64,000 bases of DNA from Marinobacter salsuginis (lineage in GTDB: Bacteria > Pseudomonadota > Gammaproteobacteria > Pseudomonadales > Oleiphilaceae). Where the stretch lies: positions 48,361 to 112,360 of the forward strand of contig NZ_BGZH01000006.1 of assembly GCF_009617755.1 (NCBI RefSeq), given 5' to 3'. Shown here one piece after another: positions 3,330-63,850 of this stretch (its first letter is position 1; each line of letters opens with the position of its first letter). A program made the translations under genes and the position numbers. Under the pieces are notes generated by a model, which was not told the origin of the DNA, ran no database searches, and worked only from the letters and a program-made list of their open reading frames with translations.

Positions 3330-4742
3330 TTGGGAGAAGTGGTGCAATTCGTGCCGAAGTACAGTGGGGAACCGGTCAGCCTTGACCGCACAGTGGCGTC
3401 TACCAACCAGGGTGAAACGCATAGACGCAAAGCCCGGCTGCTGATTGCGGACGATGAGCCGCGGCTGTTGATGAGCCTGTGCTCGATACTGCAACATAGA
3501 GGTTTTGAAGTCGATGCGGCTAAAGATGGTCACACCGCTTGCCGGCAAGCAGAGTCATTCGTTTACGATCTGATCATATTGAATCTGCGAATGCCGGGCA
3601 AAAGCGGTTTTGAGGTCATGTCCTGGCTGCGAGACAAGGGGCTTAACCCGTCTATAATTATCATCAGTGGATTCTCGGACTTCCACACCGTCCGACGCGC
3701 TTTCCGACTAGGAGCCTCGGATTTTCTGCGTAAACCCTATGACGTCGATGAGCTGATTCAAAGCGTTAACAGCCAACTTCAACCAGAGCCAAGTTTGATT
3801 CCGTCCGATCAGAAGTTAGAGCAGTTGTTTCAACTCGCCTTTGACCAACTTCCGGATCCTATCTTTGCACTGGATAAACGCATGCGTATGAGCTTTTTGA
3901 ATCACCGCGCAGAACAACTTCTAGGATCACATCGGGCGGACCTGGTTGGTCGGCCTTTTACCTATCTGGTTCACGACGATGATCTTCCAAAGGCATCACG
4001 CTTATTCGATGATACGAAAACATTAGGCTCAGCCAGACAAGAATTAAAGCTTCGCTTCCGGGGTGTAGGCAAAGGCTATAAAGAGTGTGAAATTAACATT
4101 GTTTTTCCTTTCGAACGAAGTGAAATAGCGCAGTCAACCGAACTCGCACACGTTCCAACTTCCGCGCGCGTTTTCGGCTCGATACGGGATGTCACTGAGC
4201 GCAAGCAAACGCTGGCTTTAATGGAGTTTCGAGCGTCACACGATGCACTAACGGGGCTTCCAAATCGAACTTTATTCCTCGATAGGCTCGCTTTGGCTGT
4301 CAGCCAAGCGGCACGAAGTGAACAACAATTGGCGGTTCTATTTATCGACTTGAATGATTTCAAGCACGTCAATGACACCTTTGGGCATAACGTTGGCGAT
4401 GAGCTACTAAGAAATGTAGCCGCTCGCCTAAAAATGTCCTTGAGAGAGGGAGATACTCTTTCACGATACGGAGGAGACGAATTTACCGTATTATTGCCTT
4501 CTATTGAGGGTCCTCAGGACGCAAGTGTGGTTGCCGATAAACTTCTTCAATCGCTGAGCACTCCAATGAAGCTCGAAAATGACAGTGTAAGAATCCTTGT
4601 AAAGGTGTGTATCGGAATTGCCCTGTACCCAGAAGACGGTGCTGACACAAAAGAGCTTCTGAATAGCGCTGACAAGGCGATGTACCGAATCAAAGAGCAT
4701 AGACTGTCAACGTATAGTTTTTTCAATCGAAAACACAAGTAG
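3330..4742 (+). CDS. Receiver-PAS-GGDEF diguanylate cyclase with a degenerate receiver
   Basis: Domains in order: CheY-like receiver (about residues 35-150), PAS (about 170-300, ending SIRDVTERKQTL) and GGDEF (about 310-465). The GGDEF motif at 381-385 and the inhibitory RxxD site (REGD, five residues before it) are both intact, so cyclic-di-GMP synthesis with product inhibition is expected. In the receiver the acidic pair (ADDEP), Thr/Ser position (ISG) and Lys (RKPYD) are present, but the phospho-acceptor position reads ILNLRMPG: Asn85 in place of Asp, one base change (AAT for GAT). Aspartyl phosphorylation should therefore be lost. The start is uncertain: TTG at 3330, or GTG at 3342 with GGGAG just before it. 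A close paralogue lies inside the IS66 element (5916-7307). Confidence 0.88.
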   Translation: MGEVVQFVPKYSGEPVSLDRTVASTNQGETHRRKARLLIADDEPRLLMSLCSILQHRGFEVDAAKDGHTACRQAESFVYDLIILNLRMPGKSGFEVMSWLRDKGLNPSIIIISGFSDFHTVRRAFRLGASDFLRKPYDVDELIQSVNSQLQPEPSLIPSDQKLEQLFQLAFDQLPDPIFALDKRMRMSFLNHRAEQLLGSHRADLVGRPFTYLVHDDDLPKASRLFDDTKTLGSARQELKLRFRGVGKGYKECEINIVFPFERSEIAQSTELAHVPTSARVFGSIRDVTERKQTLALMEFRASHDALTGLPNRTLFLDRLALAVSQAARSEQQLAVLFIDLNDFKHVNDTFGHNVGDELLRNVAARLKMSLREGDTLSRYGGDEFTVLLPSIEGPQDASVVADKLLQSLSTPMKLENDSVRILVKVCIGIALYPEDGADTKELLNSADKAMYRIKEHRLSTYSFFNRKHK

Positions 4743-4853: not shown

Positions 4854-5690
4854 GTGTTGGCTGTGAAATCGGAAGGAAACGTTGACGCATTTGACGAAGA
4901 GTTTGCCGTCTCGGTCTCAAAGCTACTTCGAATGCTCAGGCAAAGCTTTAATATGGACTTGGCATTCATTGGGAAGTTCGAGAATGATTCCCGGAGGATG
5001 GTGTACGTGGATTCGGACGATCCGCGCAGCACGGCTTCGAAAAACTTCTGTCTTACCCATCCCCAAAGACAGACATATTGTCGAAAAATTGCGGACGGAG
5101 AACTTCCATCGATTATTCCGGATACTAAAGCCAACGACATTACTCGAAATATGAAGGTTACCGAAGATCTTTCGATCGGCGCTTATCTGGGCGTGCCAAT
5201 CTTTCTATCCGACGGAGAGATTTACGGGACCTTGTGCTGTATCAAGTACTCCAAGGATCGAACATTGGAGAGACGTGACCCAGCTCTTTTAACTTTCGTC
5301 GCCAAAGTAATCGCCGATCGTATTGAGGTTCAACGCCGCAAAGAAGAACATCAGAACAATATTCGCGATCAGATTTATAGAGTTAGTGCGAACAACGATC
5401 TCGCAATGCATTTTCAGCCGATTTGGTCGATCGCTGACTCATCGGTCGTCGGATACGAGGCGCTTGCCCGATTCAATACACATCCTTACCGGACGCCTGA
5501 CGTTTGGTTTGAGGAAGCCCATCAGGCGGGTCTAGGTGATTACCTAGAATCGCAGGCAATAGCTAAGGCATTGAGTTACCGAGATAAAATTCCTAACAAT
5601 TGTTTTCTGAGTATTAACGCCTCTCCAGAAGCGGTTTTATCGGGAACTGTCTCCAGACTTTTCACACGCCAGAATGCTACTAAAATGTAA
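4854..5690 (+). pseudogene. GAF-EAL cyclic-di-GMP phosphodiesterase, 5' part, broken by the IS66-family element
   Basis: The GTG at 4854 has GAGGG 8 bases upstream. Residues about 15-165 form a GAF domain (LLRMLRQSFNMDLAFIG, GAYLGVPIFLSDGEIYGTLCC). The EAL domain begins near residue 180 with MHFQPIWSIAD, and YEALAR at 201-206 is the EAL signature. Codons continue to ...NATK and then run into the IS66 left end at 5687, adding Met and a stop. The remainder is at 12669-13044. Joining base 5686 to 12669 gives an uninterrupted 402-residue protein reading NATKIILEVTE, so the gene was intact before insertion. The truncated product has only the first EAL strands and cannot be a working hydrolase. Confidence 0.93.
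5679..5686. repeat. 8-bp target-site duplication (left copy) of the IS66-family element
   Basis: ACTAAAAT directly precedes the left inverted repeat and occurs again at 12661-12668 directly after the right one. An exact 8-bp duplication is the IS66-family hallmark and shows the whole 6974-bp unit inserted in one event. Confidence 0.95.
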
Positions 5691-5712
5691 GCGACCGGTA
5701 ATCCCATCTTGA
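5687..5712 (+). repeat. IS66-family terminal inverted repeat, left
   Basis: It begins GTAAGCG and ends CCCATCTTGA. It pairs with 12635-12660 at 22 of 26 positions. The 5713-5915 stretch that follows holds only the subterminal GATAGTGTCCA motif and no gene. Confidence 0.93.
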
Positions 5713-5915
5713 GTCAGACGTTGCCTTCGTGAAGATAGTGTCCAGTGGACAAATGGCTTGAAAAATCGCCCAGAGCTTGTCTTTTTGTTCTAGAAATATG
5801 GGCGGCGGTTTATTTGCGCCTCTTGTGTCGTTACCCTTCTCAAGATAAGCGCAAATTCTATACCTATCAGCAATCGCCGTGTTAGAGCTGATTTCAAGAC
5901 GTTTTCAGATTTGCA

Positions 5916-7307
5916 CTAGCTGTAAAAGCGAAAGCCGTTCTTTTTCTCCCGTTTCACGGCATACATGGCCATGTCTGCCCGCTCTACCAGCGTTTCCGCC
6001 TCATCACCGTTTTCAGGGTACAGTGCAATCCCGATGCTGGTTCCGATAGAAACGCGAAGGTCGCAGCCCGCAAAACGAAAAGGGGTTTCGAGCGAGGTCA
6101 AAAGTTTGCGTGCGACCGTTGCGGCATCCTTTTTTTCATCAAGCGAGGGCAACAGAGCCATAAATTCATCACCACCATAGCGAGCAAGCGTATCCCCTTC
6201 TCGCAAACAATTTTTCAGACCGGATGCGACTTTCTGCAATAGTTGATCACCAATCCCATGCCCGTATGCGTCGTTTACCGCTTTAAAATTGTCGAGGTCG
6301 ATAAAAAGCACAGCAAACTTTTGCCCATTACGTCTCGCCTGACTGACAGCCAGCCTAAGTCGGTCCATAAACAGGTTTCTATTAGGCAAATCGGTCAATG
6401 AATCGTGAGAAGCACGAAACTCCATTAATTCCAGTGTCTGTTTGCGCTCAGTTATGTCCCGGGCAATGCCCAAAAAAGGAGGATCCTCTGGAGAGAAGTT
6501 CGCTTGAGCTAGCGCGGGATTCACCCCAAGCGTAGAGGTAAGGATAATTTCAAAGTCCTTGTGACCAACTCCTCCACTGTGGGTCTTAAGCTTGATCTCT
6601 TGGGTAATTGGCTCGCCAGCCTCGGCTCTCTCAAAGAACAGTGGAAGCTTCGCAATGTCATCTTCATGAACGAGCCGGGAAAGCGGTTGACCAATTAACT
6701 CCTCTGCGGGCAATCCTGTAAGGCTCTCTACTTTATGGTTCAGATATTCAAAGCACTTTCGCTCGTCCAGTAAAAAAACCAGCTCGGGAAGATGGTCAAG
6801 TGTGCGCCTGAAAAGCTCGCCTTTTAGCGGGTTAGACCAGTCCGTAGTCGCCCTCGAACGGCTTTGTCTTCGTTCCAAAACTTTGTCACCAACAGCCTGA
6901 ATTAAATCATCGACATCGTAGGGTTTTTTTAGATAATCGCAGGCACCTAGTTTGAATGCTTGCCTTACGATGCGATAGTCGGAATGGCCGCTCATAATGA
7001 TGACCTGAGAATCAATGCCGGTCTCTTTCAACCAAGCCATAATCTCTAAACCGCTCTTCCCCGGCATCCGGATATCCAACAAAATCAGATCATAGGCATT
7101 ATCTTGCAGCTGCTGGCAGACGGCGTCGCCATCCATGGCCTCGTCCACCTCAAATCCTTTGTCACGCAGTATCGAGCATAAGCTTTCGAGCAAGCGCGGC
7201 TCATCGTCAGCAACAAGCAGCCGCCCCAAACGCTCTGACGCTCCGCTTGCGTCGGCGGAAAAAAGACGACCGTCATCACTGACGTTGTTTTTACTATGGG
7301 TCTGCAA
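5916..7307 (-). CDS. Receiver-PAS-GGDEF diguanylate cyclase (IS66 passenger)
   Basis: 463 residues: receiver (about 28-145), PAS (about 165-300, ending ARDITERKQTLELME) and GGDEF (about 305-460). The receiver has the acidic pair (ADDEP), phospho-acceptor Asp78 (LLDIRMPG), Ser (MSG) and Lys (KKPYD), so it should be phosphorylatable. GGDEF starts at residue 378 and the RxxD inhibitory site (REGD) is intact. The protein is clearly homologous along its whole length to the product of 3330-4742, with shared stretches such as RASHD-LT-LPNR-LF-DRL, but too diverged for a recent duplication. It is the most distal passenger of the element, read away from the two HDOD genes after a 227-base gap, so it may have its own promoter. 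Confidence 0.9.
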   Translation of the reverse strand: MQTHSKNNVSDDGRLFSADASGASERLGRLLVADDEPRLLESLCSILRDKGFEVDEAMDGDAVCQQLQDNAYDLILLDIRMPGKSGLEIMAWLKETGIDSQVIIMSGHSDYRIVRQAFKLGACDYLKKPYDVDDLIQAVGDKVLERRQSRSRATTDWSNPLKGELFRRTLDHLPELVFLLDERKCFEYLNHKVESLTGLPAEELIGQPLSRLVHEDDIAKLPLFFERAEAGEPITQEIKLKTHSGGVGHKDFEIILTSTLGVNPALAQANFSPEDPPFLGIARDITERKQTLELMEFRASHDSLTDLPNRNLFMDRLRLAVSQARRNGQKFAVLFIDLDNFKAVNDAYGHGIGDQLLQKVASGLKNCLREGDTLARYGGDEFMALLPSLDEKKDAATVARKLLTSLETPFRFAGCDLRVSIGTSIGIALYPENGDEAETLVERADMAMYAVKREKKNGFRFYS

Positions 7308-7534
7308 GGTTCACACCAGTAATATCGAGCAAGCGATTTGATTCATCGAACCTAAGAATTATACCAACATGTACATTTTTACGTCAGTAAAAGCGACTAA
7401 TGTTTTCCTCTCTCACTTTTGGCCGTAGACATAAGCGACAAGCGTTCATAAATTGTGTGTTGTAGATTGCTGGGCACATCCATTCTGTTAATCCCCCAAC
7501 GTAAGCGATTCGCCACAATTTCTGTATTTGCTTG

Positions 7535-8674
7535 CTACCGTTGCTCACAGCTATATTCATCCAACCCGAGTCGACTCAGAAGACGCAAACATTCTTCGCT
7601 TTTTCCCTCGCCAGCTGCTTTGAGCGCTGCTGTGCGCATCACGATCAGCGACTCGCGGGTGGCGGCCCGAGGAAGAATATGCACAGCCCCGATGAGTTCC
7701 CTGAGCGGGATTGGTAGATGCCATTGCACCTTCAGACGATTTCCAAAGGTAGGAGCCCAGGTCCCCAACCCACCTTCAATATGCTCTTCCGAAATGGAGC
7801 AGTTTTGGTCAATTGCCTCTTGCATCACCTTGAGCACTGCCAACTCACCAATGCGACTGAGCAGTGCAGCTACATGAATCTCCGCCGCGTTGATTTCAAG
7901 CCTCGCTGCAACCAGTTCGGCCTCGCGGGCCGTTTTTTCGGCGAGTTCAATAAACGCCTCGGCCCTCTCCGCAAGACGCGGGTCGCGCATGTGTCCGGAT
8001 ATATTCAACGACAATGCCATTGCTTGCCGGAGTGCCATATCGATCCCCAAGGTTGCAATGGCATCACGCAAATTACGGACGGGTTCACCGGTCTTTTTGA
8101 AAGATGCAGTGTTCGCGACATCCAGCAGACGAGATGTCAGCGCCATTTCGTCATTCCAGCGCTCGGCAAGCTGGGATGGATAGAGATCCTGACGACGTTC
8201 CATCAGTTTGATGACATCAGCCGTATTAATCTCGCAAGGAAGCTGGATGACCGTATCGACCGAGGATCGTAATCGTTGCTCCAGATCGATGGGTGACTGC
8301 TGCTCAAAAGCTTCCTGGTCAACCAGTGATTTCAGCCTTTCGTGAAGGAGCGACACATCGAAAGGTTTTACGATGTAGCTATTGATGCCGTGGTGTGCTG
8401 CCTGGCGCACAGATTTGCGATCCGAACGACTGGAAATCAAGACAACCGGTGTTTGTTTGTCATTTTCGCGAACGGCTCTTGCACAGGCCAGGCCCGACCC
8501 ATCCGGTAGGCTCCAGCCAGTAATTATCAAGTCAGCACCGTTTTCCCTCCAATACGCCAGAGCGCTCTCCATGGTCCCCGTTACAAAAACAGTGCCACCC
8601 GGATAGAGACCGCCAACAACTGTCTCCAAAAGGTCGGCCATCATTACGTCGTGCTCCAGAATTAACGTCCTCAA
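7535..8674 (-). CDS. Receiver-HDOD protein with degenerate receiver (IS66 passenger)
   Basis: 379 residues. Residues 1-120 form a CheY-like receiver (RTLILEHDVMMADLLE, ISS, VKPFD). The phospho-acceptor position reads IITGWSLPDGSG: Gly53 replaces Asp, one base change (GGC for GAC). Residues about 135-340 form an HDOD domain; its metal-binding HD pair is replaced (LLSRIGELAVL), as is usual for HDOD, which is thought to bind protein or nucleotide partners rather than hydrolyse. The start is TTG at 8674 with AAGGAAC 8 bases upstream; no ATG or GTG fits. It follows the second HDOD gene by 122 bases and probably shares its transcript. Confidence 0.82.
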   Translation of the reverse strand: MRTLILEHDVMMADLLETVVGGLYPGGTVFVTGTMESALAYWRENGADLIITGWSLPDGSGLACARAVRENDKQTPVVLISSRSDRKSVRQAAHHGINSYIVKPFDVSLLHERLKSLVDQEAFEQQSPIDLEQRLRSSVDTVIQLPCEINTADVIKLMERRQDLYPSQLAERWNDEMALTSRLLDVANTASFKKTGEPVRNLRDAIATLGIDMALRQAMALSLNISGHMRDPRLAERAEAFIELAEKTAREAELVAARLEINAAEIHVAALLSRIGELAVLKVMQEAIDQNCSISEEHIEGGLGTWAPTFGNRLKVQWHLPIPLRELIGAVHILPRAATRESLIVMRTAALKAAGEGKSEECLRLLSRLGLDEYSCEQR

Positions 8675-8796
8675 TGGGGGGTTCCTTCAAGCCTGATAGA
8701 GAAAAAGGGACAGCCAATCAGATCGGTTTTTGCATACCGTGCAGCTGCCTGTCAGCAGTGTGGGACGTGGTGGCCGAAGAAAAATCGTAGAGGTTA

Positions 8797-9837
8797 TCAA
8801 GCCGGGCTCGCCTCTTTTTCAAGCATCCCCGCAATCGCGCCACGTATCCTGTCGAACTGCGGCTCTTCCAGCAGCAGAACTTGACGAAGTTCCTCTTCGG
8901 TCAGAGTGGGGTGATTGACGTGACGCAATACCTCGCGGGTACCCAGCATAATTCCATCGCAGAGCGGGGTAGAATACTGCATCGGCGTTGGACGCGTCGT
9001 TGCAGGCAAACTGGCTTGGAAGCTAGAGGGTAAGCTCCACTTCTGGGCCACCAGTCGGGCGATTGCCCAATCGAACTGGCTGAAAACCGCACGAAACAGA
9101 CTGGGGGGTACCTCCTCTCGGTTGCAGCGGTCTTTGTAAAGCCTTTCCACTTCACGTCGAAGGGTGATGTAAGAGAGCGCCGGCAGTAAGCCCAATAGAA
9201 AGTGAGCACCGCTGTCCACACCTTTCGAGATGGCAACTGCTTCCGCTGATCTGGCGCATGTCATGCCCCACTGCCAGACTCGCTCACTGAACAGCGCTTC
9301 GGCATTGTCCCGCGCGGCCAGCATGGGTTGCATGATGGAAGCCGACACGACATTCCGAATGCCTCTGTGCCCTAACAGAAAGACCGCCTGGTCTACCGAC
9401 TCAATATGTTGATCTCCGGATCGGAAGAAGGGGCTGTTCGCGACCTGAAGAACCCGGTTGGTCAGTGCAGGGTCCTTCAAGATAATGCTAACCAGCTCCC
9501 GTCTGTCCGAGTTCTCCTTGGACAGGGCGTGCAACAGCTTGGGGAGAATCAGCGGCTGACGTGGCAACTCTTCCAGTTTGCCAGAGCTTATTCTGCTTTC
9601 CAGTTGGGCGACAATGGCGCTTGTGCGCTCGTCGGTTTTCTCCAGTTGGTGTGGCTCCACGTTCAAGAGCCAGGAGAGCAAGCCTTCTTGCAGACTTCCC
9701 GAGACCTCGTCTACGGCCAAGAAAACTGGATCGCTCGTCTCCTTATCGGCATGGCCCGGTTGGGAGGTAGTCGCGAGCTGCGATTTTGTCGTCGAGGTTC
9801 CGAAGAATTCCCTAACCCATTGAAGAGTGCGTCGCAC
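8797..9837 (-). CDS. HDOD domain protein (IS66 passenger)
   Basis: 346 residues with a polar N-terminal 70 residues and an HDOD domain at about 80-290: LPRQPLILPKLLHALSKE, VSIILKDPALTNRVLQVANS (the conserved DP-L--RVL--ANS motif), and VDQAVFLLGHRGIRNVV. The HD pair is absent (FLLGLLPALSYI), as in most HDOD proteins. The start is GTG at 9837 with AAGGGGA 6 bases upstream; an ATG three bases further up is in another frame. A consensus-like promoter lies at 10041-10067, so this gene is probably first in a passenger operon. Confidence 0.82.
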   Translation of the reverse strand: MRRTLQWVREFFGTSTTKSQLATTSQPGHADKETSDPVFLAVDEVSGSLQEGLLSWLLNVEPHQLEKTDERTSAIVAQLESRISSGKLEELPRQPLILPKLLHALSKENSDRRELVSIILKDPALTNRVLQVANSPFFRSGDQHIESVDQAVFLLGHRGIRNVVSASIMQPMLAARDNAEALFSERVWQWGMTCARSAEAVAISKGVDSGAHFLLGLLPALSYITLRREVERLYKDRCNREEVPPSLFRAVFSQFDWAIARLVAQKWSLPSSFQASLPATTRPTPMQYSTPLCDGIMLGTREVLRHVNHPTLTEEELRQVLLLEEPQFDRIRGAIAGMLEKEASPA

Positions 9838-9997
9838 CCATTTCCCCTTTTACTACGATAAAAAAGACTGTCTTCAGGAAGCATGACGATCGGACAGATC
9901 CTGACGCTGGAGTGTCCCTGACAGTTTTTAACACTCTCGAGACGCCCTCTCGCTTCGCTGTTATGAGCATCAACGAAGTGCAATGGCACTGCTGAAA

Positions 9998-10019
9998 AAC
10001 TAACACTTAACAGTTAGTT
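9998..10019. promoter_or_regulatory. Inverted repeat, possible operator upstream of the HDOD operon
   Basis: AACTAAC and GTTAGTT form perfect 7-base arms around an 8-base centre. It lies about 15-35 bases downstream of the expected transcription start of the promoter at 10041-10067, a place suited to repression. The rest of 9838-10248 holds no gene. Confidence 0.45.
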
Positions 10020-10040
10020 ACAATTAATCTAAGAGAGAGT

Positions 10041-10067
10041 TTTATAAACAGTTTAATGTTTTGTCAA
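10041..10067 (-). promoter_or_regulatory. Predicted sigma-70 promoter for the HDOD passenger genes
   Basis: On the minus strand TTGACA (10067-10062) is followed after 15 bases by TATAAA (10046-10041). The -35 box is perfect; the spacing is short. It points toward the HDOD gene starting at 9837 and sits between that gene and tnpC. Confidence 0.55.
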
Positions 10068-10248
10068 GAATATGAGACAGCGTTCACTCTTTATTGTCTT
10101 CTACTTGATCTGGAGGGTGAGTTAGACCGTGGTTTGTCTTGTGGGATTATCCGAAATTACGCTCAATCAAAAACGGCCAATTCCGCATGATAGAGCCTTT
10201 AGAGAGGAATCAAACAATCCAACATAAGGGGCCGGCCATTGCGACTTA

Positions 10249-11805
10249 TCAGGGTATGCAAGGCTTCCAGTTGTGGGGCAATAGCTCGTTGATGGCGTTG
10301 TTTTTCTGCGTCGGCAGCCGAGTCAGAACATCCTTTAGATAGGCATAGGGATCGTGCCCGTTCAGCTTCGCGGACTGGATCAGCGTCATGACCGCAGCTG
10401 CCCGTTGACCACTGCGCAGTGATCCCGCGAACAGCCAGTTGGAACGACCCAGCGCCCAGGGTCGGATCTGGTTTTCCACCCAGTTGTTGTCGATGGGCAC
10501 AGCGCCATCGTCCAGGTAGCGCGTCAGCGCTGCCCAACGTTTGAGGCTGTAATCCAACGCTTTGGCCGTGCCGGAGCCATCTGGCACCTTCTGGCGATGC
10601 GCCAGCATCCACTGATGCAGTGCGTCAGCCAGTGGTTTGGCTCTGGTTTGCCGGATTTCCCGTCGCTTATCCGGCGGCAGGTCTTTGGATTCTCGCTCGA
10701 TCTCGTAAAGCCCGCCGATGTATTCCAGGGCCTTGGCTGCCAACTCGCTCTTGTTGGCTTCGTGCAGGTCGTAGAACTTGCGCCGGGCGTGGGCCATACA
10801 ACCGATTTCGGTGATGCCATTACCGAACCCGGCTTTGTAGCCAGCGTAGTCGTCACAGACCAGCTTGCCCTGCCAGTCACCCAGGAAGTTCCGGGCGTAT
10901 TCGCCCGCACGGCTGGGCGCGAAGTCATAAACAGTGGCTTTGAGATCCGAGAACGGCGTGGTGCAGTAGGCCCAGACGTAGGCTTTGTGAGTCTTTTTCT
11001 TGCCCGGAGCCAGCATGCTGACCGGCGTTTCATCGGCATGCAGAACGCTGTGCTCCAACAGGGCATTTCTCAGTGCATCCACCAGGGGCTGCAACTGCAC
11101 ACCGCAGGCACCCACCCATTCGGCCAGGGTGGAGCGCGGGATTTCTAATCCGGCACGGCCGAAGATGCGTTCCTGGCGGTACAGCGGCAGATGGTCGGCG
11201 TACTTGGCCACCAGCACCTGGGCCAGCAGACCGGCGGTGGGGATGCCCTTGTCGATCACCTGCGCTGGAACCGGTGCCTGGATCAAGGTCTCGCATTCTT
11301 TGCAGGCCCACTTTCCCCGGATGTGGCGCTCCACCGTAAACTCACCCGGGACATAATCCAGCTTTTCACTGATGTCTTCACCGATGCGCTTGAGCTGGCA
11401 GCCACAACGGCACTGGGTATTTTCAGGCTCGTGGTGGATCAGGGTGCGGGGCAGTTCCGGTGGCAGCGGGGTGCGCTTGGGCTGCTGCTTTGGCCGAGCG
11501 GCTTTCTGCTCCTCGGTCATCGCCTGGTCCAGCTCGGCTTCGATGGCGGCCAGGTCGCTGTCGATCAGTTCGTCCAGCAGTTTCCCCTGAACCGCATCGA
11601 GTTGTTCACTACGACGGGCGTACTTGTGACGCTTGAGGATGGCTACTTCGTGGGTCAGCTTCTCGATGATGGCATTGCTGCGTACCAGCTCCCGCTCCTT
11701 CCGGCCCAAGGTTTGATCCTTGGCATCCAGAGAGTCCATCAGTTCCGTCGCCAGGGCACGGAGCTGATCGGCAGAGAGATGGTTGATATCGGGGCGCTGA
11801 GTCAT
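10249..11805 (-). CDS. tnpC: IS66-family transposase TnpC
   Basis: 518 residues, the usual IS66 transposase length. A coiled coil (about 25-110) is followed by a Cys-rich zinc-binding segment (TQCRCGCQL and KWACKECETL), then the DDE core: SVLHADETPV (first Asp), KLVCDDYAGY (second Asp) and VPIDNNWVENQIRPWALGR (Glu). The C-terminus ends with the IS66_C-like NAINELLPHNWKP. Catalytic residues are intact, so the element may still move. Confidence 0.95.
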   Translation of the reverse strand: MTQRPDINHLSADQLRALATELMDSLDAKDQTLGRKERELVRSNAIIEKLTHEVAILKRHKYARRSEQLDAVQGKLLDELIDSDLAAIEAELDQAMTEEQKAARPKQQPKRTPLPPELPRTLIHHEPENTQCRCGCQLKRIGEDISEKLDYVPGEFTVERHIRGKWACKECETLIQAPVPAQVIDKGIPTAGLLAQVLVAKYADHLPLYRQERIFGRAGLEIPRSTLAEWVGACGVQLQPLVDALRNALLEHSVLHADETPVSMLAPGKKKTHKAYVWAYCTTPFSDLKATVYDFAPSRAGEYARNFLGDWQGKLVCDDYAGYKAGFGNGITEIGCMAHARRKFYDLHEANKSELAAKALEYIGGLYEIERESKDLPPDKRREIRQTRAKPLADALHQWMLAHRQKVPDGSGTAKALDYSLKRWAALTRYLDDGAVPIDNNWVENQIRPWALGRSNWLFAGSLRSGQRAAAVMTLIQSAKLNGHDPYAYLKDVLTRLPTQKNNAINELLPHNWKPCIP

Positions 11806-11880
11806 GTCCCATAGTATGCCAAGCCCTTGTGCTGCAAGCGATTCGCAGTTCTGGCTATGGCGAAATTACTGCACTTGTGG

Positions 11881-12216
11881 TTACAGGATGGAGATGACGC
11901 CGCCGGCCCCTAGGCGCTGCCAGGGCAGGCCCTCAACCAGGGCGAATAACTGTTCCTCGGTCAGGCGCAGTTGGTCACCGCGCCAGGCTTCGCCCCAATG
12001 GAACTTGCCGCGGTTCAGCCGGCGGGCACACAGCCAGATGCCCAGGCCATCGTGGATCAGAACCTTCATCCGGTTGCCCCGTTTGTTGGCGAACAGGTAG
12101 GCGCAATGGGGCCTGGCAGAACCGAACACCTGAATAACCCGGGCCAGGGCCTTGTCGGGCCCGGCCCGCATATCCAGCGGTTCGGTAGCCAGCCAGATCT
12201 CGTCAATGCGGATCAT
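11881..12216 (-). CDS. tnpB: IS66 accessory protein TnpB (Orf2-like)
   Basis: The 111-residue product from the ATG at 12216 begins MIRIDEIWLATEPLDMRAG and contains the family signature HCAYLFANKRGNRMKVLIHD then GIWLCARRLNRG. The start overlaps the tnpA stop by four bases (ATGA), the usual translationally coupled layout in IS66; a longer frame upstream lies within tnpA and is not needed. TnpB is required for transposition together with TnpA and TnpC. Confidence 0.93.
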   Translation of the reverse strand: MIRIDEIWLATEPLDMRAGPDKALARVIQVFGSARPHCAYLFANKRGNRMKVLIHDGLGIWLCARRLNRGKFHWGEAWRGDQLRLTEEQLFALVEGLPWQRLGAGGVISIL

Positions 12217-12578
12217 CCCAGCAGGTCCCGTAACAGCGCAGCACACTGGTGCGCCTGCTCCGCAGGCCACTCCACCACGACCGAGCCACCGGCGCGGGGA
12301 ATCTTGATGCGGATGGTGCTACGCTTGTCTGGAACTGATTGGTTGCTCGGTGCAGAGGTTGCCGCTGGGAGAGCGACCGACACAAATCCCGATCTTTTCG
12401 GCGCTCGTCGCGCTTCATTAATCCAGCGCCGAACCATGTTGGTGTTGAGCCCATTCTCCAAAGAAATCCGGGAAACAGAAGCTCCGGGTTCTAGGCACTC
12501 AGCAACGATGTCGGCTTTAAACTCAGGAGAAAAGCGGCGACGCTTCTGATAGGGCTTGGTTGCGCTTACGTTGTTCAT
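12213..12578 (-). CDS. tnpA: IS66 accessory protein TnpA (Orf1-like, HTH)
   Basis: 121 residues with an IS3/IS911-type HTH at about 12-58: RRRFSPEFKADIVAECLEPG, SVSRISLENGLNTNMVRRWI. The C-terminus is short and variable. It is first in the tnpABC set, about 60 bases inside the right inverted repeat, and overlaps tnpB by four bases. Confidence 0.93.
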   Translation of the reverse strand: MNNVSATKPYQKRRRFSPEFKADIVAECLEPGASVSRISLENGLNTNMVRRWINEARRAPKRSGFVSVALPAATSAPSNQSVPDKRSTIRIKIPRAGGSVVVEWPAEQAHQCAALLRDLLG

Positions 12579-12634
12579 GTTAAGTGTCCACTAGAAAATA
12601 AGTGGACACTATCCTGACGGCAGCAGCGCCAGGA

Positions 12635-12660
12635 TCAAGATGGGATCACCAGACGGTTAC
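12635..12660 (-). repeat. IS66-family terminal inverted repeat, right
   Basis: The minus strand reads GTAACCG at the end and contains ATCCCATCTTGA, matching the left end at 22 of 26 bases. The duplicated target ACTAAAAT follows at 12661-12668. Confidence 0.93.
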
Positions 12661-12668
12661 ACTAAAAT

Positions 12669-13044
12669 TATTTTGGAAGTTACCGAGCATTCAAGAATTC
12701 TTGACTACCCTGAATTTCGAAATGCAGTACAGGTGATTCGAAAAATGGGGGCGCGGCTTGCGATTGATGATGCAGGCTCCGGATACGCGTCTCTGCAGCA
12801 CGTGATAGAGCTTGACGCCGATATTATCAAGTTAGATCTGAATTTGATTCGTAACATTCATTGTGATTATAAGAAACAAGCACTTGCGGCAGCTCTAGTC
12901 TCTTACGCACATCGAGTTAAAGCTCAAGTTGTCGCAGAGGGAGTGGAGTCCCAAGAAGAATTTAGCGTGCTAAAGGACCTCAAAATTGATAAAGTGCAAG
13001 GCTACCTAATTGGCAAACCTGAACCTTGGCCGTCCGTATCATAA
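12669..13044 (+). pseudogene. GAF-EAL phosphodiesterase, 3' part, separated by the IS66-family element
   Basis: This is the rest of the gene that starts at 4854. It reads IILEVTEHS (the metal-binding Glu of LEVTE), LAIDDAGSGYASLQHV (the DDFGxGYSSL motif), DIIKLDLNLIRNI and VVAEGVESQEEF, ending in GYLIGKPEP. These are the later catalytic motifs of an EAL phosphodiesterase and all look intact. Translation could begin at an ATG at 12640 inside the element, but the product would lack the GAF domain and the EAL strand. The frame joins exactly with 4854-5686. Confidence 0.93.
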
Positions 13045-13659: not shown

Positions 13660-14127
13660 TCAGAAATCAGAGCGCAGCCGATCATCAAATAGGAATGTTA
13701 TTTCAACGGCCGCTTCGATAACTGCTTCTGCGTCCGGGTGTTCCGGATTCAATAGGAGGTTATATTCTTGTGGAACGACACACGAACGGACCGCCAATGC
13801 CAGCGCTTCGCCTTCGATAAGGAAATCAGTCCCGATCTCTTGTGTGCCTGCCGACACTCTTGTTCCGTTCCAGTCTTTTGGGTAAACGTCATCGGCCAGG
13901 ACCATAATTTGGCTGTCTGGTACTTCGATTTGAAACAGTAGATAGTTCTGAAGACTGTCCTCTTCACCCAAATTAACCAGGATTTCTAGTTGAGCAAGTG
14001 CAATGCTCTCCGACAGATATACCGCCGAGTGATTGGGCAGATTCCAGCGCCCCCCATATTGGCGCGCACCAAACCCGGAAAACGCGGTATCCTTGTGTTT
14101 TCGTTTTGTAATACGGTACGCCTTCAT
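13660..14127 (-). CDS. RES-domain toxin (NAD-degrading type)
   Basis: 155 residues covering one RES domain. Signature positions are seen: YRITKRKHKDTAFSGFGARQ then YGGRWN (Arg and the GGRWN motif), VYLSESIALAQLEILVN (Ser/Glu region), and PQEYNLLLNPEHPD near the end (S/N-x-N-LLNPxHP). Known RES toxins degrade NAD+ and block growth; that activity is inferred here. It overlaps the Xre antitoxin gene by four bases, antitoxin first, as in the Xre-RES class of type II systems. Confidence 0.9.
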   Translation of the reverse strand: MKAYRITKRKHKDTAFSGFGARQYGGRWNLPNHSAVYLSESIALAQLEILVNLGEEDSLQNYLLFQIEVPDSQIMVLADDVYPKDWNGTRVSAGTQEIGTDFLIEGEALALAVRSCVVPQEYNLLLNPEHPDAEAVIEAAVEITFLFDDRLRSDF

Positions 14128-14630
14128 GCGTACACGCCGTGCTCAAGCTGACCAATCAGATCCCGTACCATGCGAATACCAGCCTCGGTATCCAGAAGAT
14201 CTATTGGGCACTGGTGCTCAAGGGCTCGCACCGGACGCTTCAGCCAACGTTGTGCCTTATCTCTATCACCTTCAAACAATTCCACGGCATCACGCATCAC
14301 CAGGTGCAAAGTCGCTACCCGATCCAGTTCTGCCTTGTTCACGGTGCCGTCTTCACGTCTGCGCAGCAAGGTGCGCGGGGAAATATCCAACAATGTGCAT
14401 AAAACAGTGTCGTCGATGTCGTAAAGGGCCTTCAGGGCATCCAGCTCCTTAGCCTTACCGCCGCGTCGGATTTTTTTTACGCCCTGAACGCCCGAGAATA
14501 CGTACTTTCCGGTGATAGTTGAGCGATGGGCTTTCACAGCACCACGCCCCCCATATACACCGCTAACATTCGCCTTCTCAGGCCCAAAATGCCCTTTAGA
14601 GCTCTGTTTTTTCTCAGTAATCGCTGACAT
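14124..14630 (-). CDS. Xre/MbcA/ParS-type antitoxin
   Basis: The product from ATG 14630 has 168 residues; this start has GGAGG 5 bases upstream, whereas the longer frame upstream does not. The N-terminal 50 residues are basic and polar; the centre holds an Xre-type HTH (LKALYDIDDTVLCTLLDISP, TLLRRREDG) and the C-terminus a DUF2384 segment (AVELFEGDRDKAQRWLKRPV, LLDTEAGIRMVRDLIGQLEHG). It neutralises the RES toxin and probably represses the operon. The long N-terminal tail is unusual for the family. Confidence 0.88.
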   Translation of the reverse strand: MSAITEKKQSSKGHFGPEKANVSGVYGGRGAVKAHRSTITGKYVFSGVQGVKKIRRGGKAKELDALKALYDIDDTVLCTLLDISPRTLLRRREDGTVNKAELDRVATLHLVMRDAVELFEGDRDKAQRWLKRPVRALEHQCPIDLLDTEAGIRMVRDLIGQLEHGVYA

Positions 14631-14641
14631 ATGAACCTCCC

Positions 14642-14673
14642 GCCATTTGGCAAAAATAGTATACCACAATGGC
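14642..14673 (-). promoter_or_regulatory. Predicted promoter and operator of the RES/Xre operon
   Basis: On the minus strand TATACT (14663-14658) is a good -10 box 28 bases before the antitoxin start; no strong -35 is seen. GCCATT and AATGGC arms (14642-14647 and 14668-14673) flank the -10 box, a layout suited to autorepression by the Xre protein. Confidence 0.5.
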
Positions 14674-14748
14674 GCCGGCATTTCTTTTAAATCGATCCTA
14701 CCCTTTTTAAGCCAACAGCGAAGAATCAAGAAAACACGTAAACACGAC

Positions 14749-15999
14749 TTAGCTGGTATCCAGTCTCACACTCTCACAATTCCCAGACACACTACCTGAA
14801 TCGGACAGCATTCTAATCGTCCGCGCCGGCACTAGAGAGCAACCACGATCAAACAACAAAGGAACCAAAAGCGAAGCAGCTATCTGATAGGTAGCATTTT
14901 TAACATTTGATTTGCCGGCGTTGAGCCGCTGCTTTGCCGTGGGAAAATCGACAACATTGCGGCCGGTCGGCGCGAGTAAGTGTTTGTGTTTTGCAACGGT
15001 TTGGCGGGAAAGTCCTGAAGCTTCTGCAACTGCCTTCTGTGTCAGTGGAATTCCCTGAGACTCGAGATTGGTGACCGCTGTACGAATCTTCTTCTCGGTT
15101 TTCTTAACGCGCTCTTTGTGCGTGTACTTGGCTGCTAATCGTTGCTTTTCTGGAAGTGGCATTGCGCGGTCTAACAGCATGGTGCCACGCGCGCAATCGG
15201 CGGCGCCGTAATACTTTGACCAGGTCCAGCGGGTGATTGACTTTACCGTCGCACGAACCTGGCTCTGACGAAGCTTGCTCGATTTGTAGTGACGCCCGGA
15301 AAATCGATTCTTGCTCCGTGCGTACTGCTCTACCCTCCTTATAAAAGAGCGTTCAGAGCCCTGTTCACGTTCCTGCCGCACGATCGCGTAGGCAAAAAAT
15401 CGAACCTGTTCGAACAACGTGCAATGTCGAGAATGGCTGACGGTTTCCAGGTCTGGAACACCGCGCCAGGGCGGCGCATATTCAAGCTCGCTCGCTGGCT
15501 GCAGCTCGCCGAGCGAATATTCGAAATTATGAAGCTCAGTAGTCTCCCACCAGGGGTGGCCTGGCGTCTTTGCCACAGGACCGCTATAAGCGAGATCCGC
15601 CCGTAATTTATGTGCCAACGAGCGATACACCGCTTTCATGAAATCAACCGGCTTCTGTCGAGCTCCTGGGCCAGAAAGAACCGGGGTGATCGCGTAGTAG
15701 AGGTGGGCACTGCTGGTTTTTGGGTTGCGCACGATCAGATTAGGGGGCGGCAATGCTGCGTCCTCCCAAATCATCGGATTAGCATGGTCAAGATCGAAAA
15801 CCAGCCAAGACACGACGTTCTTGCGATTGACCTGCATGTAAGGCCAATTTACCGCATTAGCCCTGGGTTTGATGTAAGCCGCGGTCTTGTTGTCGGAACA
15901 GCGACACAAATACGGCGCTTCATCAAAAACCCGGCGCAAGGACGACCCAGGCTTCGAGAACGCCTCGTTTTCCGGCCGTACGTCAGGTGATGTCGCCAC
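14749..15999 (-). CDS. ColE2-type plasmid replication initiation protein (Rep/replicase)
   Basis: 416 residues. Residues about 20-180 match the ColE2 replicase primase domain: NVVSWLVFDLDHANP (Asp-containing catalytic strand), NLIVRNPKTSSAHLYYAI and GHPWWETTELH. A PriCT-like helical part follows (about 195-270), then a C-terminal HTH (GIPLTQKAVAEASGLSRQTV). These proteins prime and start replication at an origin just downstream of their own gene, so the origin may lie near 14640-14750; I could not match it to the known ColE2 sequence. The start is GTG at 15999 with a poor ribosome site, consistent with the tight translational control known for ColE2 Rep. Confidence 0.88.
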   Translation of the reverse strand: MATSPDVRPENEAFSKPGSSLRRVFDEAPYLCRCSDNKTAAYIKPRANAVNWPYMQVNRKNVVSWLVFDLDHANPMIWEDAALPPPNLIVRNPKTSSAHLYYAITPVLSGPGARQKPVDFMKAVYRSLAHKLRADLAYSGPVAKTPGHPWWETTELHNFEYSLGELQPASELEYAPPWRGVPDLETVSHSRHCTLFEQVRFFAYAIVRQEREQGSERSFIRRVEQYARSKNRFSGRHYKSSKLRQSQVRATVKSITRWTWSKYYGAADCARGTMLLDRAMPLPEKQRLAAKYTHKERVKKTEKKIRTAVTNLESQGIPLTQKAVAEASGLSRQTVAKHKHLLAPTGRNVVDFPTAKQRLNAGKSNVKNATYQIAASLLVPLLFDRGCSLVPARTIRMLSDSGSVSGNCESVRLDTS

Positions 16000-62983: not shown

Positions 62984-63850
62984 TCAGGCGGCTTGGTCCT
63001 CCCTTTCGCTTTCATGGGCTGCCAGGTACTCAAAACACAAATCGTGTGCCTTCTGTGCCAACGTGGCCGCTTTGAAAAGGGCTTTCTTGTCAAAGTCCAG
63101 GATTCGGATCCAGTGCGCCAGATAGCTCTTGTGCTGCAAATCACCCTGTAGACCAATCCGGCTGCACATCATCCAGCTACCCAACTCGGCGACCAGCTCC
63201 TCAAAGGCGTACGCGTCAGAGCCAAACTTACCGACCAATTCCCGATTCAGGCGGCTTTTGTGACCAGTCGCGTGAACCATTTCATGCAGGCGTGTGCAAT
63301 AGTAATCCTCGCCCTTAGCGAACTGTTCACGGGTTGGCATTCTGATGATGTCGAGGCTTGGGATATAGCAGGCCTGATCGCCACCATGGCGAGTCTCGAT
63401 CGGAAACGCCTCACAGATCGCTTCTGCATCTTCGATGGGAGCCCAGGTCGGCTCAACCTCAGGTGTTTCAAAGCCTTCAAACTGTTCGCGATTGAATACC
63501 GTGAAAGCCTTCATCACGGCATAGGATTCTTTCTCGCCGGTGTCGCTGTTCTCTTTCTCCATCGGCTTAAAGAAAATACAGGTTGTGCCCTTCTCACCTT
63601 TACGGACAAAAGCGCCTTGCTGCTTGCCCTGCTGGAAGGTCATCCACTGGTTTGATCGGTAGCCTTCAGCGCGTGCGCGCATGGCTAACAGAAGAACGTT
63701 CATACCGTTGTACGGCTTGCCAGTCGTACCGTTTACCGGCATGGCAAAAGATCCGTTTGATGTCCATGGACAAACCCAGGGCTTAACACCTTCTTTCAGG
63801 GCTGCCAAAAATTCTGAAGTGATTTCTTGATAGAGGTCGCGCTTTGCCAT
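62984..63850 (-). CDS. ardC: ArdC-type anti-restriction protein
   Basis: 288 residues. The N-terminal ssDNA-binding ArdC_N domain (about 1-120) includes EITSEFLAALKEGVKPWVCP, NGTTGKPYNGMNVLLLAMRA and WMTFQQGKQQGAFVRKGEKG. The C-terminal zincin-like domain (about 150-280) has the metal site LHEMVHATGHKSRL and EELVAELGSWMMC. ArdC proteins coat or shield entering single-stranded plasmid DNA from restriction. Its place on the first-entering side of oriT fits that role. GGAG lies 9 bases before the ATG, and a consensus promoter lies at 63924-63952. Confidence 0.93.
   Translation of the reverse strand: MAKRDLYQEITSEFLAALKEGVKPWVCPWTSNGSFAMPVNGTTGKPYNGMNVLLLAMRARAEGYRSNQWMTFQQGKQQGAFVRKGEKGTTCIFFKPMEKENSDTGEKESYAVMKAFTVFNREQFEGFETPEVEPTWAPIEDAEAICEAFPIETRHGGDQACYIPSLDIIRMPTREQFAKGEDYYCTRLHEMVHATGHKSRLNRELVGKFGSDAYAFEELVAELGSWMMCSRIGLQGDLQHKSYLAHWIRILDFDKKALFKAATLAQKAHDLCFEYLAAHESEREDQAA

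Follow-up and report, generated by a model that had tools for sequence, protein, structure and literature searches.

How does an insertion sequence come to carry regulatory genes, and what might follow for the cell in which it lands? The question is raised by an IS66-family transposable unit of 6,974 bp (5687..12660) in a 64-kb stretch of Marinobacter salsuginis DNA (from contig NZ_BGZH01000006.1; the whole stretch is hereafter the window), in which three genes of cyclic di-GMP (c-di-GMP) signalling lie beside those for transposition. The explanation that we favor, and hold to be very probable, is that of a tIS66 unit transposon, i.e., an IS66 element with passenger genes, which bears a signalling cassette, was born from an inverted pair of IS66 copies, has spread between species and carries a cargo that acts on the host. 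Transposable second-messenger regulators of this kind would let one jump alter a cell's decision between swimming and attaching.

The unit and its copies at other sites

The boundaries of the unit are set by matched ends, by a duplication of the target and by full-length copies in two further genomes. Within the window, the octamer ACTAAAAT is confined to the two borders, as the left (5679..5686, plus strand) and right (12661..12668, plus strand) target-site duplications. The outer left end (5687..5744, plus strand) and the right end on the tnpA side (12603..12660, minus strand) are identical at 22 of 26 terminal positions and at 44 of 58 over a longer stretch; locally aligned, they reach a score of 44, while none of 1,985 random pairs from the window exceeds 29, and the subterminal GATAGTGTCCA is common to both. 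Both termini begin with GTAA, as do the IS66 ends quoted in the excerpted text of PMC12888890. Between the ends, all on the minus strand, lie tnpA (121 aa; 12213..12578), tnpB (129 aa; 11881..12270), tnpC for the IS66 DDE transposase (518 aa; 10249..11805), an HDOD gene (346 aa; 8797..9837), a receiver-HDOD (Rec-HDOD) gene (379 aa; 7535..8674) and a gene for a Rec-PAS-GGDEF diguanylate cyclase (463 aa; 5916..7307). The transposition proteins were assigned by Pfam (PF03050, PF13817, PF13005, PF13007, PF05717 and PF01527, above cut-off) and the cargo by Pfam and alignment. A composite transposon, with a full IS66 copy on each side, was ruled out, there being a single tnpABC and, on the left side, an end of only about 58–66 bp. 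An earlier note on this DNA had described one transposable unit with these ends, an exact 8-bp duplication and a full tnpABC, and had named both the shared subterminal sequence and the receiver-PAS-GGDEF, receiver-HDOD and HDOD cargo; end alignment and Pfam bear out each of these points.

An 8-bp target duplication is a criterion of the IS66 family. Here, TnpA, TnpB and TnpC with its IS66 DDE domain accompany a duplication that matches at eight of eight bases in all three known copies, and three non-transposition genes lie inside one pair of ends at three sites, as in a tIS66.

These copies emerged from a sample of 124 genomes of the genus, supplemented for the Rec-HDOD/HDOD pair by 163 genomes of the family. 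The genus searches scored the two to three best first-look candidates per genome, such that additional copies in a genome may have escaped notice; for the genome of the window itself all 31 candidates were scored, and it holds a single copy. Full-length copies stand in M. flavimaris LMG 23834 (G009; 96% identical) and M. changyiensis CLL7-20 (G006; 92%), flanked by the perfect 8-bp duplications GTGATACC and GATCAATT, respectively; at neither insertion point was an open reading frame of at least 120 aa found to span the site. Three different perfect duplications at the same outer boundaries need separate transposition events, which indicates that the whole 7-kb unit moves as one piece. It is a reservation here that mobility is read from insertions, no transposition having been observed. 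The expectation of the earlier note, that the same ends with the same three passengers would be met at other sites with 8-bp duplications, was thus realized in all three full copies, and the opposite pattern, regulators conserved at the locus without the ends, was not seen: none of the 124 genomes has the full cargo outside the element.

Cargo DNA was matched at E <= 1e-40 in 17 of the 124 genomes and at full length in three. The Rec-HDOD/HDOD pair was recovered at E <= 1e-100 in 3 of the 163 family genomes, with a 77% Rec-HDOD alone in one further genome. In the plasmid collection PLSDB, the whole element matched 470 records, none covering 80% of the query, and the best 20 of the 470 align to the transposition part only; Rec-HDOD matched one record (tblastn, E <= 1e-30; 33%), and the cyclase one (E <= 1e-100; 52%), from Marinobacter nanhaiticus.

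The window copy splits a GAF-EAL (phosphodiesterase-type) gene within its EAL domain, leaving a 5' part (4854..5686, plus strand; Pfam GAF and EAL profile positions 6–102) and a 3' part (12669..13044, plus strand; EAL profile positions 118–236). With the duplication counted once, the joined protein has a continuous EAL domain, and as a query it found relatives at E <= 1e-60 in nine other genomes of the 124, all nine of them uninterrupted open frames (five 60–75% identical, four 33–37%). Just upstream of the interrupted gene lies a second Rec-PAS-GGDEF gene (3330-4742), 49% identical to the cargo cyclase and with Asn replacing the receiver Asp; a relative of this neighboring cyclase stands alongside in one of three relatives' contexts (L054), and the GAF-EAL relatives may be other loci.

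The signalling cargo and its host

In the window copy, the GGDEF active site, the inhibitory RxxD site and the receiver Asp of the cyclase are all intact in alignment. The receiver being intact and no kinase being encoded on the element, the cyclase would probably be switched by a kinase of the host to make c-di-GMP. The HDOD proteins could then serve as c-di-GMP effectors, most likely with motility going down and attachment up, by analogy with SadB and GsmR. SadB, which contains an HDOD domain, binds c-di-GMP and controls flagella downstream of a cyclase, and the AdrA/SadB system of Pseudomonas fluorescens likewise comprises a diguanylate cyclase and an HDOD-containing protein, although SadB has an additional YbaK-like domain and its likeness to the cargo is drawn from its description (PMC6543031, in excerpt). 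In Xanthomonas, GsmR, an HDOD regulator, similarly has an effect on motility genes (PMC4114195, in excerpt). In the host of the window copy, the interruption of the GAF-EAL gene would be predicted to push c-di-GMP in the same direction.

Several observations tell against a cargo that acts in this manner. The three genes are not all open in every copy, as the M. changyiensis cyclase has a +1 frameshift with HDOD and Rec-HDOD open. The Rec-HDOD receiver has Gly at the phospho-acceptor column in the window protein, the two copies and four close relatives, whereas the other 6 of the 13 aligned proteins (10 of them hand-picked from 120 listed database proteins) have Asp; ordinary phosphorylation at that site is therefore not possible. 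The ratio of nonsynonymous to synonymous divergence (dN/dS) is 0.34–0.45 for the cyclase and 0.43–0.58 for HDOD, the latter from only 4–9 nonsynonymous and 3–6 synonymous changes, i.e., mild constraint at most. Finally, a sigma-70 scan returned six sites against 3.6 (sd 1.9) expected and no convincing promoter; the only coding-strand site sits upstream of the cyclase (7387-7358), and none lies upstream of the HDOD gene. The promoter of its own with which the earlier note had credited the cargo was accordingly not recovered, and its larger claim, that the cargo rewires the second-messenger state wherever it lands, is unsupported or goes no further than inference, the cyclase being frameshifted in one of three copies.

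The frameshift and the ratios for the cyclase and HDOD (0.34–0.58 taken together), as well as an HDOD relative (P0124; 94% over 73% of the query) that departs from the shared sequence beyond residue 245 or so, would sit well with a cargo that is a decaying hitchhiker, mobile and without selected function in its recipients. We judge this unlikely, though it is the strongest of the alternatives, since HDOD and Rec-HDOD are open in all three copies, the dN/dS of Rec-HDOD is 0.16–0.22, and 93 sequences belong to the protein database cluster P0001 (98% to Rec-HDOD) and 95 to P0121 (97% to HDOD).

Relatives of the cargo genes are also found off the element. Cyclase relatives with 73–76% protein identity occur at eight loci in seven other genomes of the genus (the count excludes two shorter DNA matches, 157 and 205 bp long, in G102 and G114). 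At five of the eight (L028, L029, L069, L070 and L071), they are near a Tn3-type TnpA, a tyrosine recombinase and a KfrA_N-type protein, the Pfam names being taken from L069 only; L030 has a KfrA protein with pieces of TnpA and tyrosine recombinase, and L062, a short stretch at a contig end, a piece of KfrA, while none of the three was seen at L027. The three relatives aligned (L069, L030 and L027) have about 150 bp of leader in common, and no convincing Tn3-type terminal repeats were found around the cyclase in L069-L071. The Tn3-family region of these other Marinobacter, which we presume to be Tn4651-like, is thus similar to the element in carrying this cyclase lineage and differs in its Tn3 TnpA, tyrosine recombinase and KfrA_N protein; one cyclase lineage is therefore associated with two transposon classes. 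A free-standing Rec-HDOD relative (L031) adjoins an Hpt-Rec-GGDEF gene, so that cyclase and HDOD are found paired outside the element as well.

The passengers described for insertion sequences have mostly been genes of a different nature, e.g., resistance genes. The SXT/R391 elements are integrative conjugative elements, and not, like the IS66 element, members of an insertion-sequence family. They carry diguanylate cyclases and, like the element, bring c-di-GMP synthesis to the host (Bordeleau 2010, cited in PMC4542580, in excerpt). No report of a c-di-GMP/HDOD cargo on IS66 was found in the open-licence literature, much of it represented by excerpts, which is not proof of its absence.

Divergence and transfer between species

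As a marker for the divergence of the hosts, an 11.5-kb rpoB/rpoC region was used, with rpoB identified by TIGR02013 and rpoC by position; a third open reading frame (368 aa, other strand), probably not a gene, was excluded from the comparison. The identity of this region is 93.2% between the window genome and M. flavimaris and 81.9% between the window genome and M. changyiensis. For the same two pairs, in this order, synonymous divergence (dS) is 0.277 and 1.268 for rpoB and 0.449 and 1.062 for rpoC, as against 0.012 and 0.020 for HDOD and 0.045 and 0.058 for Rec-HDOD; the cyclase has values of 0.066 and 0.192. The two HDOD genes are thus 98–99% identical between hosts in which the marker region is 82–93% identical, and their dS lies far below that of rpoB and rpoC, from which it follows that they recently crossed species lines.

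Divergence is mostly higher in the transposition part than in the cargo, with dS of 0.364 and 0.495 for tnpC, 0.200 and 0.366 for tnpB and 0.092 and 0.337 for tnpA; the tnpC divergence by itself would not reveal transfer for the window-flavimaris pair. From one segment to the next, the nearest relative of the transposition part switches between IS66 copies with cargo and copies without it, a mosaic that we read as repeated recombination with other IS66 copies. To the debit of the transposition account, the three copies resemble one another in these segments roughly as much as they resemble cargo-free IS66, and part of the spread of the cassette may have been by recombination. Taken further, homologous recombination between IS66 copies or plasmid transfer could be the main route by which the cassette spreads, with 7-kb transposition being rare. 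This would agree with the mosaic, with the excess of tnpC dS (0.36–0.49) over that of HDOD and Rec-HDOD (0.01–0.06) and with the conjugation genes on the window contig, but it has to contend with three different perfect 8-bp duplications at the same outer boundaries, and we consider it a shade less probable than the decaying hitchhiker.

Spread between Marinobacter species by a transposing unit was itself probably helped by conjugative plasmids, to judge from the contig of the window. This contig (112,360 bp) has a replicase-family gene (14752-15837), with about 65% DNA identity to plasmid replication genes, a conjugation region (39205-62029) with genes for a TrwC-type relaxase, a TrwB/TraD-type coupling protein, TraC, TraU and TraG, and also a TrbI-like gene; it is probably a conjugative plasmid. 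It is a mark against this assignment that no terminal overlap of 21–127 bases closes the contig (C6). As to the other hosts, the TraU match of G009 is on a contig other than that of its element copy, and G006 has no TraU match. Near the replication gene, a RES-domain protein gene and a possible antitoxin gene (13663-14729) may form a toxin-antitoxin pair, by position only, and an ArdC-type anti-restriction gene (ArdcN and zincin-like domains) lies at 62987-63850.

End types and the probable origin of the unit

Cargo-free IS66 siblings in Marinobacter (85–89% DNA identity among the five best genus hits) have the same right-end type and, like the element, 8-bp duplications; they differ in having a native left end (GTAAGCGTCCGGCCATCACACCTTGTCA... 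and variants) directly after tnpC, with no cargo there. All five tested (L007, L009, L010, L011 and L074) have 8-of-8 duplications, and four of the five are 2.4 kb long. The fifth, L009, is about 1.4 kb longer on the tnpA side, with the extra DNA (L009:3873-5250, in G010:C13) between tnpA and the right end and the 8-of-8 duplication kept.

In the cargo-bearing element, the outer left end stands 4.5 kb beyond the position of the native left end and is, by alignment, of the right-end (tnpA-side) type, a new observation. Over 58 bases, the window end is identical at 43–51 positions to seven right ends versus 25–27 to four native left ends, and the M. flavimaris end at 44–50 versus 25–28; by eye, the similarity runs on into the palindrome of the tnpA leader, with its middle missing at the left end. 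Also new is that, beside tnpC, all three cargo-bearing copies keep a native left end in decayed form (in the window between tnpC and the cargo, 10223..10258, plus strand, as aligned to the native left ends of cargo-free copies). A second IS66 left end next to tnpC, which the earlier note had named as grounds for doubting the unit, is thus present only as a decayed fossil, and perfect duplications flank the outer ends.

The decayed left end and the right-end-type outer end together suggest a birth from two inverted IS66 copies, because this is the simplest history for both. Two such copies would have stood on either side of the cargo, and the second would have supplied the working left end from its outer side; this second copy would then have been mostly lost, reduced to its end, and the first copy's own left end would have decayed. 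As the three insertions at different sites show, TnpA, TnpB and TnpC move the 7 kb between two right-end-type ends, making 8-bp duplications. A weaker signal in M. changyiensis, the outer left end of which has an indel and gives, ungapped, 36–40 of 58 to right ends versus 26–28 to left ends, detracts from this history.

The siblings also bear on a very unlikely alternative, namely that the cargo serves the element, its c-di-GMP/HDOD output tuning transposition or conjugation and not host behavior. The co-orientation of cargo and transposition genes is in keeping with it, as is the presence of cyclase relatives next to another transposon class, but siblings without cargo (L011/L035 and L074, with full-length tnpC matches) have 8-of-8 duplications as well, and no link to the control of transposition was seen. 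That resident genes happen to lie between two unrelated IS66 ends, with no mobile unit, would suit the 4 of 26 differing end positions and the native left end remnant, but this is contradicted by the three copies, with the same boundaries and other duplications in two more genomes and target gene relatives uninterrupted in nine of nine, and can be given practically no credence.

The fossil left end and right-end-type outer end may offer a concrete and testable route of cargo gain in IS66. It is conceivable, and we offer it tentatively, that IS66 commonly gains passengers by inverted copies trapping genes, the outer right end of the second then serving as left end, yielding here a c-di-GMP cyclase/HDOD module that travels between species on conjugative plasmids and shifts recipients to a sessile, attached state, and that the same cyclase lineage, also in Tn3-type transposons, is a specialized mobile second-messenger gene. 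IS66 elements with passengers are known as a class, as the earlier note had stated: as excerpted, PMC12888890 finds passengers in 7 of the 25 IS66 entries that ISfinder lists for Pseudomonas (tIS66) and proposes terminals with relations to two different IS66 elements. The ISPa75-fosZ tIS66 of Pseudomonas described there is like the element in its TnpA, TnpB and DDE transposase, in a passenger downstream of the transposase, in GTAA ends and in several target duplications. It differs in carrying one resistance gene in 3.0 kb as against three signalling genes in 7 kb, and the Marinobacter element is set apart from it by the right-end-type outer left end and the fossil native left end (PMC12888890, in excerpt).

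Same-contig inverted pairs of right ends within 20 kb numbered 13 in all, of which 11, with ends 2.5–7 kb apart, were tested for duplications; left out were a pair in G026 separated by 68 bp and a 2.4-kb pair in G027:C9 that has a native-type left end. Perfect duplications flank 5 of the 11: the three element copies, L072 and L078. Rejected as element ends were the pairs at L077 (0 of 8), L079 (two pairings, 2 and 2 of 8), L080 (2 of 8) and L073 (1–2 of 8), along with the outer pairing at L074 (2–3 of 8), where the native left end instead gives 8 of 8.

L072:2165-5081, in another genome of the genus, is a 2,917-bp IS66 element with an MntP-family gene as cargo and the 8-of-8 duplication CTTCAGGG. 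Its termini are of the right-end type (40–44 of 58 to right ends versus 24–25 to left ends), its tnpC is internally deleted, and it has no recognizable native left end. A 4,525-bp IS66 element with cupin and chlorite-dismutase-family genes as cargo is 100% identical at L078:1137-5661, in a genus genome, where its duplication is TAATCGGC, and at L084:2875-7399, in the Escherichia coli plasmid pYUSHP6-3. Its fit to the proposed origin is impaired by the outer end at L078, the type of which is undecided (29–33 of 58 to right ends, 31–32 of 58 to left ends), and the L078 assembly may be contaminated. In the E. coli plasmid, where the element adjoins mer genes, an inverted remnant of an IS66 transposase is still present at the far side of the cargo, and together with L072 this copy would lend further support to birth from an inverted pair.

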